Shown: piece by piece, positions 5,657 through 56,483 of the stretch | How the letters are laid out: every line of letters begins with the position of its first letter | Position numbering within the stretch: position 1 is the stretch's first letter | The notes under the pieces: model-generated | What the model saw: only the letters and a program-made list of their open reading frames with translations | What the model was told of the DNA's origin: nothing | The model's database searches: none | Made by a program: the position numbers and the translations under genes | Assembly (NCBI GenBank): GCA_028688145.1 | Contig: JAQTYU010000001.1 | Coordinates: 640,284 to 704,283, forward strand | Reading direction: 5' to 3' | Source of the DNA: Thiotrichaceae bacterium | GTDB lineage: Bacteria > Pseudomonadota > Gammaproteobacteria > Beggiatoales > Beggiatoaceae | DNA length: 64,000 bases

Positions 5657-5691
5657 TCTGGTTTCCTCGATTGGTTTTTTATTTATAATAG

Positions 5692-5808
5692 TAGGAGTTA
5701 CGCAGTTGAACCGCTAACTATTTGATTTTACTAGAAACACGATTGTGCAGTGCACAATGCTAACTCATTGTAAATAAAAGAACTCATGTTTCAACTGCGT
5801 AACTCCTA
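5692..5808. mobile_element. 117-bp MITE with 19-bp perfect terminal inverted repeats and 5-bp target duplication
   Basis: The two ends are perfect 19-bp inverted repeats (TAGGAGTTACGCAGTTGAA and its complement). The element is flanked on both sides by AATAG, as expected for a 5-bp target-site duplication. The centre carries a 15-bp palindrome (TTGTGCA-G-TGCACAA). There is no coding capacity. A second copy with the same 117-bp length but worn ends is at 56297..56413. It lies in the upstream region of both the crotonase-fold gene and the DUF1624 gene. Confidence 0.85.
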
Positions 5809-5891
5809 AATAGTAAGCTTAAAATTCTGACATAAAAGCTATTAATTTTCAATTAACTAGAAATTCTCTTCTAATTCACACAGGTAGATTT

Positions 5892-55869: not shown

Positions 55870-56262
55870 TGGGGGCTTTGTAAAAACAAAAGCCCTTGTT
55901 TTGAAGACTGGCGAGACAGGTATTCTTCACCGCTTGGGAATCCACCATAATCAAGCTTGTCCGTTTAGCGTTTTTTTGAGTGCTCTCTGAGGCTTTCATG
56001 TAAACGCGGCATCAGTTTATCGATGATAGCTCGCCATTATTTATAATGCCAGTACACGCTTGAATAGGGTGGGAAGTCTTTGGAAAGGTCAGCCCAGTTG
56101 CAGCCATTTTTGAGCTGGTAAAGCATGGCATCGAACAGGATGCGATAGCCCCATTTCTGAGGACGAGTTTGTTTTTCCTTAGGCAATAGCTCATTTAATA
56201 AAATTTCAACGATTGCCCACTCTGCATCGTTTAGGCTGCTTAAATAAGGACTTATTTTATTT
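55870..56262 (-). pseudogene. IS5-type transposase N-terminal fragment
   Basis: On the minus strand the frame reads LNDAEWAIVEILLNELLPKE, KQTRPQKWGYRILFDAMLYQ and LKNGCNWADLSKDFPPYSSV, then WHYK and an in-frame TAA; a frame change before MVDSQAVKNTCLASLQNKGF restores the next part with the DDE-domain motif VDSQ. This is the DUF4096-like N-terminal domain and beginning of the catalytic domain of an IS5-family transposase. The C-terminal half is missing. Confidence 0.75.
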
Positions 56263-56296
56263 AGCTACGCTTGCGTTTTTCTCATCTTTTAAAGTT

Positions 56297-56413: not shown

Positions 56414-56483
56414 AGGTTTACATAAGATTCCAAATCGGTTCTATATAACTCACTCGAAGTCTTGAGTAAGATGTAAAAGATTT

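Follow-up and report, generated by a model that had tools for sequence, protein, structure and literature searches.

A putative IHF site at a near-constant distance from the end of a 117-bp MITE with IS701-type ends in a Thiotrichaceae bacterium

The 117-bp element described here, in a window of 64,000 nucleotides (the whole stretch of DNA that was analysed), is a miniature inverted-repeat transposable element (MITE): it is shorter than 500 bp, has no transposase gene, has inverted ends, shows target duplications together with an empty site, and occurs in dispersed copies. Its interior carries an IHF-type box that was absent from the earlier description of the element. Bacterial MITE interiors are usually regarded as filler. 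Judged from the sequences compared, it is highly probable that we are dealing with a MITE, an IS701-type parent and a real IHF site, all three taken together, and a role of IHF in transposition, considered alone, is somewhat favoured. For the broadest reading we would put the chances at about even: the MITE interior would be a conserved IHF-bending scaffold, mostly of 115-117 bp (with a 103-bp form too), with a box at nt 23/24, sometimes a second one 45 bp from it and an otherwise free sequence, passed between or kept in Gammaproteobacteria, Desulfobacterota and Magnetococcales, and transposition would select DNA bending rather than coding or RNA.

The coordinates are collected in the table. 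The first-pass annotation had described a 117-bp unit with perfect 19-bp ends and AATAG on both flanks, and this is exact at 5692-5808, where the inverted ends TAGGAGTTACGCAGTTGAA and TTCAACTGCGTAACTCCTA show no mismatch over 19 bp. A central palindrome, given there as 15 bp, is present but is 17 bp long (ATTGTGCAGTGCACAAT), self-complementary at all but its unpaired centre base. The worn second copy reported some 50 kb away is real. Near matches to the end motif number 5 in the window compared with 0.03 expected. Adjoining the second copy, window positions 56000-56290 hold what appears by eye to be a transposase-gene remnant of another IS, and this flank is common to copies L018 and L020.

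Features of the window copy of the MITE and of its older second copy (window positions)
Feature	Position	Strand	Basis or detail
Target duplication AATAG, left copy	5687..5691	.	flank comparison
Left terminal inverted repeat, 19 bp, perfect	5692..5710	+	sequence
Putative IHF box, perfect consensus WATCAANNNNTTR (AATCAAATAGTTA on minus strand)	5715..5727	-	element nt 24-36
Palindrome at centre, 17 bp, ATTGTGCAGTGCACAAT	5742..5758	.	sequence
Degenerate second IHF-like box, 2 mismatches	5761..5773	-	element nt 70-82; perfect box there in Magnetococcales elements
Right terminal inverted repeat, 19 bp, perfect	5790..5808	-	sequence
Target duplication AATAG, right copy	5809..5813	.	flank comparison
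Older second MITE copy, 117 bp, 85% identity	56297..56413	+	end mismatches 2 and 1; first IHF box 1 mismatch
Left flank of second copy, AAGTT	56292..56296	.	right flank AGGTT at 56414-56418; decayed 5-bp duplication, 4/5 match

A search of the host genome (31 contigs, 3.63 Mb) for the end sequence, as had been proposed with the first description, found about 26 near-full copies over many contigs, plus fragments, and 131 occurrences of the end motif with at most 2 mismatches compared with 1 for the reversed control. Exact 5-bp duplications flank 14 of the 26 copies against a mean of 0.65 under shuffled flank pairing, and 19 have duplications with at most one mismatch against a mean of 2.3. Three copies, the window copy among them, are identical; they occupy unlinked loci, their exact duplications are 5, 6 and 5 bp long, and identity at unlinked places points to recent movement. 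For the AATAG of the window copy no empty site was found; the sites that were found are paralogous and belong to another copy, L021 (113 bp, AAAAC duplication), which lies inside a repeat whose uninterrupted copies carry a single AAAAC. The possibility that the unit belongs to a conserved RNA gene, also raised with the first description, or more widely that a structured RNA gene or an immobile REP-like repeat accounts for it, is very improbable. The RNA fold is stable (z -7.3), but this is due chiefly to the inverted ends, the exact 5-bp duplications and the empty site contradict such a reading, no Rfam match was obtained and covariation of the arms was not above that of shuffles.

The parent of this MITE appears to be an insertion sequence of the IS701 type. 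In the host genome, more widely spaced pairs of these ends enclose broken IS701-type transposase genes, and a query joined from host transposase fragments matches NCBIfam NF049921 (transpos_IS701_2) with a score under the cut-off of 250 bits. No intact transposase gene is found among the assembled host contigs. Contigs C4, C5, C8, C10, C14 and C19-C21 break off ~125 bp into an element that has these ends (L162, L165-L167, L208-L211), and from these contig ends it can be proposed that the host probably has an intact IS701_2 copy that was collapsed as a repeat, left out of the assembled sequence and itself breaks the contigs. The earlier suggestion was that the parent transposase may be in the genome; full-length transposons with the same ends were found, decayed in the host genome and intact in a Thiomargarita MAG (G011, locus L330). 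It is 1043 bp long with perfect ends and a TAGGT duplication, and its ORF of 340 aa scores 386 bits against NF049921. G011 and G021, both Thiomargarita MAGs, belong to the same GTDB family as the host. Two other candidate parents, a 1062-bp pair of terminal inverted repeats in Poribacteria and a 1003-bp pair in Desulfobulbaceae, were rejected since neither encloses a full transposase ORF.

The end sequence, for which no named element had been known at first reading, does have a named bearer: ISMesi2 of Allomeiothermus silvanus, a member of the IS701 family, has the ends TAGGAGTTACGCAGTTG and CAACTGCGTAAGTCCTA, the same as those of the MITE, and its transposase is 55.6% identical to that of the Thiomargarita IS. 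Plasmid IS of Gloeocapsa and Methanosarcina also have the same ends, with at most 1 mismatch across the first 13 bp. ISMesi2 and its relatives in the NF049921 group resemble the MITE in their ends, and relatives in the group make 5-bp duplications, but they are autonomous elements of ~1.0-1.3 kb whose ends have no IHF box, whereas the MITE is geneless and shares with them the terminal ~17-19 bp only, on which ground an interior derived by internal deletion of an IS701 element was rejected. ISAba11 of Acinetobacter also belongs to the IS701 family. In a comparison made without its ends, it is like the parent IS in its 5-bp duplications and its length of about 1.1 kb (PMC7885321). A MITE that shares only the terminal repeat with its IS is termed a type II MITE (PMC10969869), and on these grounds we infer that the element is a type II MITE, moved in trans by an IS701-type transposase. 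The family name is used here in a wide sense. Almost all IS701 elements have been described with a target duplication of exactly 4 bp and with the end consensus ---YACT-Y--YR, said not to represent the whole family (PMC2266710); TAGGAGTTACGCA fits this consensus in part, and the duplication is 5 bp rather than 4 bp for both the MITE and the parent IS, which places the parent in IS701 in the broader NCBIfam grouping and not in the 2008 core.

Within the MITE interior a conserved block, TAANNNNTTGATT, matches the IHF consensus WATCAANNNNTTR (PMC5896051, PMC3281130) read as its reverse complement. In counts that are inflated by descent, since most box-bearing copies are related and the numbers overstate independence, a perfect box occurs in 23 of the 26 own copies (shuffle mean 0.4) and at nt 24-36 in 22 of these 23; among 274 distinct end-anchored 74-mers the box lies at offset 7 in 23, at offset 6 in 2 and at offset 18 in 1, with 3 scattered matches in the opposite orientation; and a pattern of end plus box that tolerated gaps of 0-30 matched 64 times in nine whole genomes, with offset 6 or 7 in all except one, and 0 times in the control. 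In the window, the box has a background frequency of 1.2e-4 for each position and strand. At nt 23 or 24 a perfect box is also present in relatives 103-117 bp long, from Chromatium okenii, cable bacteria, other desulfo-lineages (Desulfococcaceae forms among them) and Magnetococcales, and the Thiomargarita elements have the box with one mismatch. The strongest independent case is that of two Magnetococcales elements, each with one perfect box at nt 24 and another at nt 69, 45 bp apart, which share little beyond their ends and the two boxes (interiors z about 3 to each other). Most other members have a weaker box at the second place, with 1-3 mismatches. The host genome encodes IhfA (adjoining pheT), IhfB (adjoining rpsA) and HU.

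The box could be read differently, as a second transposase-binding site beside ends that are shared across phyla, with the rest of the cross-phylum likeness due to AT-rich composition. The box does adjoin the inverted repeat, within possible reach of the transposase, and other phyla have same-end MITEs whose interiors are unrelated. However, the bases that vary across box copies are the four N positions of the IHF consensus while the specified bases flanking them are nearly fixed, and IS701 elements have no box beside the same repeat (none at nt 23-25 in the 15 IS ends examined), and we regard this alternative as quite unlikely. The same ends also bound other elements in the host genome, of 53, 61, 92, 121-131 and 185-186 bp. 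The box is mostly absent from the other same-end MITEs (53, 92 and 121-186 bp in the host genome; 61 in other phyla), so mobility in general does not depend on it. Further host-genome families of 53, 121-131, 126 and 185-186 bp with the same ends, mostly without the box, were seen at L154, L156, L158, L160, L161, L164, L168-L173, L175 and L176.

Elements of 115-117 bp are present in other genomes of the host family, in the isolate Chromatium okenii DSM 169, in Candidatus Electronema, in other Desulfobulbaceae and in Magnetococcales. A profile built from the own interiors with the ends removed matched C. okenii at E 2e-7 and the complete genome G002 at E 2e-4; its matches to Desulfobulbaceae were weak (E 0.06 to 0.7), and the reversed control gave none. 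Pairwise interior scores of G002 against own and Desulfobulbaceae elements were mostly z 5 to 9. By these scores the own interiors have a good link to those of C. okenii and of G002, and a likely one, via G002, to those of Desulfobulbaceae. Magnetococcales interiors show hardly any match beyond the boxes, and those of the two elements with paired boxes are at or near chance against nearly everything else. Myxococcota elements of 116 bp were rejected as relatives because their interior similarity is at chance; these MITEs, seen in MAGs at L220, L237, L283 and L315, have the same ends around a GC-rich, unrelated interior with the palindrome GGGCGGTTCGCGAACCGCCC.

A length of 117 bp is below the persistence length of DNA, so that pairing of the two ends needs a sharp bend. 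In the mechanism that we propose, a DDE transposase of the IS701_2 group, supplied by an IS of ~1.0-1.1 kb with TAGGAGTTACGCAGTTG ends, would bind both MITE ends in trans, excise the element and reinsert it with a 5-bp duplication, mostly into AT-rich intergenic DNA. The bend for end pairing would come from IHF at nt 24-36, perhaps joined by IHF at the second box 45 bp on, and such bending would explain why the position of the box and the total length stay constant while the remaining interior drifts. IHF would act here much as it modulates Tn10 (work cited in PMC5896051 and PMC3281130). An alternative that keeps the same origin for the MITE is that the box is retained for an effect on the expression of neighbouring genes and not for transposition. 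The own copies overlap no ORFs of at least 100 aa in a crude ORF scan, the window copy sits between divergent ORFs at distances of 36 and 84 bp, and the IHF site of the Correia elements binds IHF in vitro, with regulatory roles suggested (PMC2229807, PMC10969869). We nevertheless consider a regulatory role unlikely: the insertion sites are scattered, and the box keeps its place relative to the element end across unrelated hosts and gene contexts, as a role intrinsic to the element predicts. The sequences themselves establish the ends, the copies with their duplications, the empty site, IS701 elements with matching ends and the box at its conserved position; mobilisation in trans by an IS701 transposase, binding of IHF to the box, and service of that binding to transposition rather than to neighbour-gene regulation are the three steps that we infer.

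MITEs with IHF sites are already known. The Correia elements (NEMIS) of Neisseria have ends and a parent that differ from those of the 117-bp MITE. They are like it in being small (~105-155 bp), with inverted repeats and an internal IHF site, but that site lies within a 50-bp internal part and in the 155-bp form only (PMC2229807). QMITE1 of Coxiella burnetii also has a conserved WATCAANNNNTTR box, thought to help transposition, but is about 400 bp long with 21-bp ends and 2-4 bp duplications, and no relatives of it are reported from other genomes (PMC5896051). Within the Beggiatoaceae, the hupL MITE of Candidatus Thiomargarita nelsonii shares the feature of a 19-bp inverted repeat, but it is about 200 bp long with 10-bp direct repeats, a distinction that is by description only; no parent IS was found for it, and the link to an IS701_2 parent made here is one that was absent from that study (PMC4853749). 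Two features seem new: in several lineages the box holds a set position relative to the transposon end, within an element of near-fixed length and otherwise free interior, and the MITE is linked to an IS701_2 parent. The MITE interior thus seems to hold a host-factor site that is fixed to the transposon end in different phyla and is missing from the parent IS. If true, this would explain how an element of ~117 bp, too short for easy looping, transposes, and it would make available a natural variant series for probing IHF in MITE transposition. In the open literature that was searched, we found nothing on MITEs in cable bacteria and no relevant paper with the exact end sequence.

The exact 19-bp end is found in many phyla, archaea included, mostly in small paired-end elements. 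Candidatus Thermoflexus sinensis, for example, has many MITEs of ~142 bp that share this end sequence and whose flanks mostly match (L218, L219, L223, L231, L244, L261, L266, L272, L302). A plasmid search found no copies of the MITE, and carriage by viruses was rejected, as viral contigs matched the 14-base end motif but showed no paired ends within 1.8 kb. The family is patchy, since an order-level sample around Electronema gave a match in 1 of 58 genomes, Electronema only. At the Electronema locus L304, an IS701-type fragment (about 400-820) is followed, ~14 bp past its end, by a 117-bp MITE (834-950) that has these same ends and is flanked by the duplication ACAATA/ACAATA.
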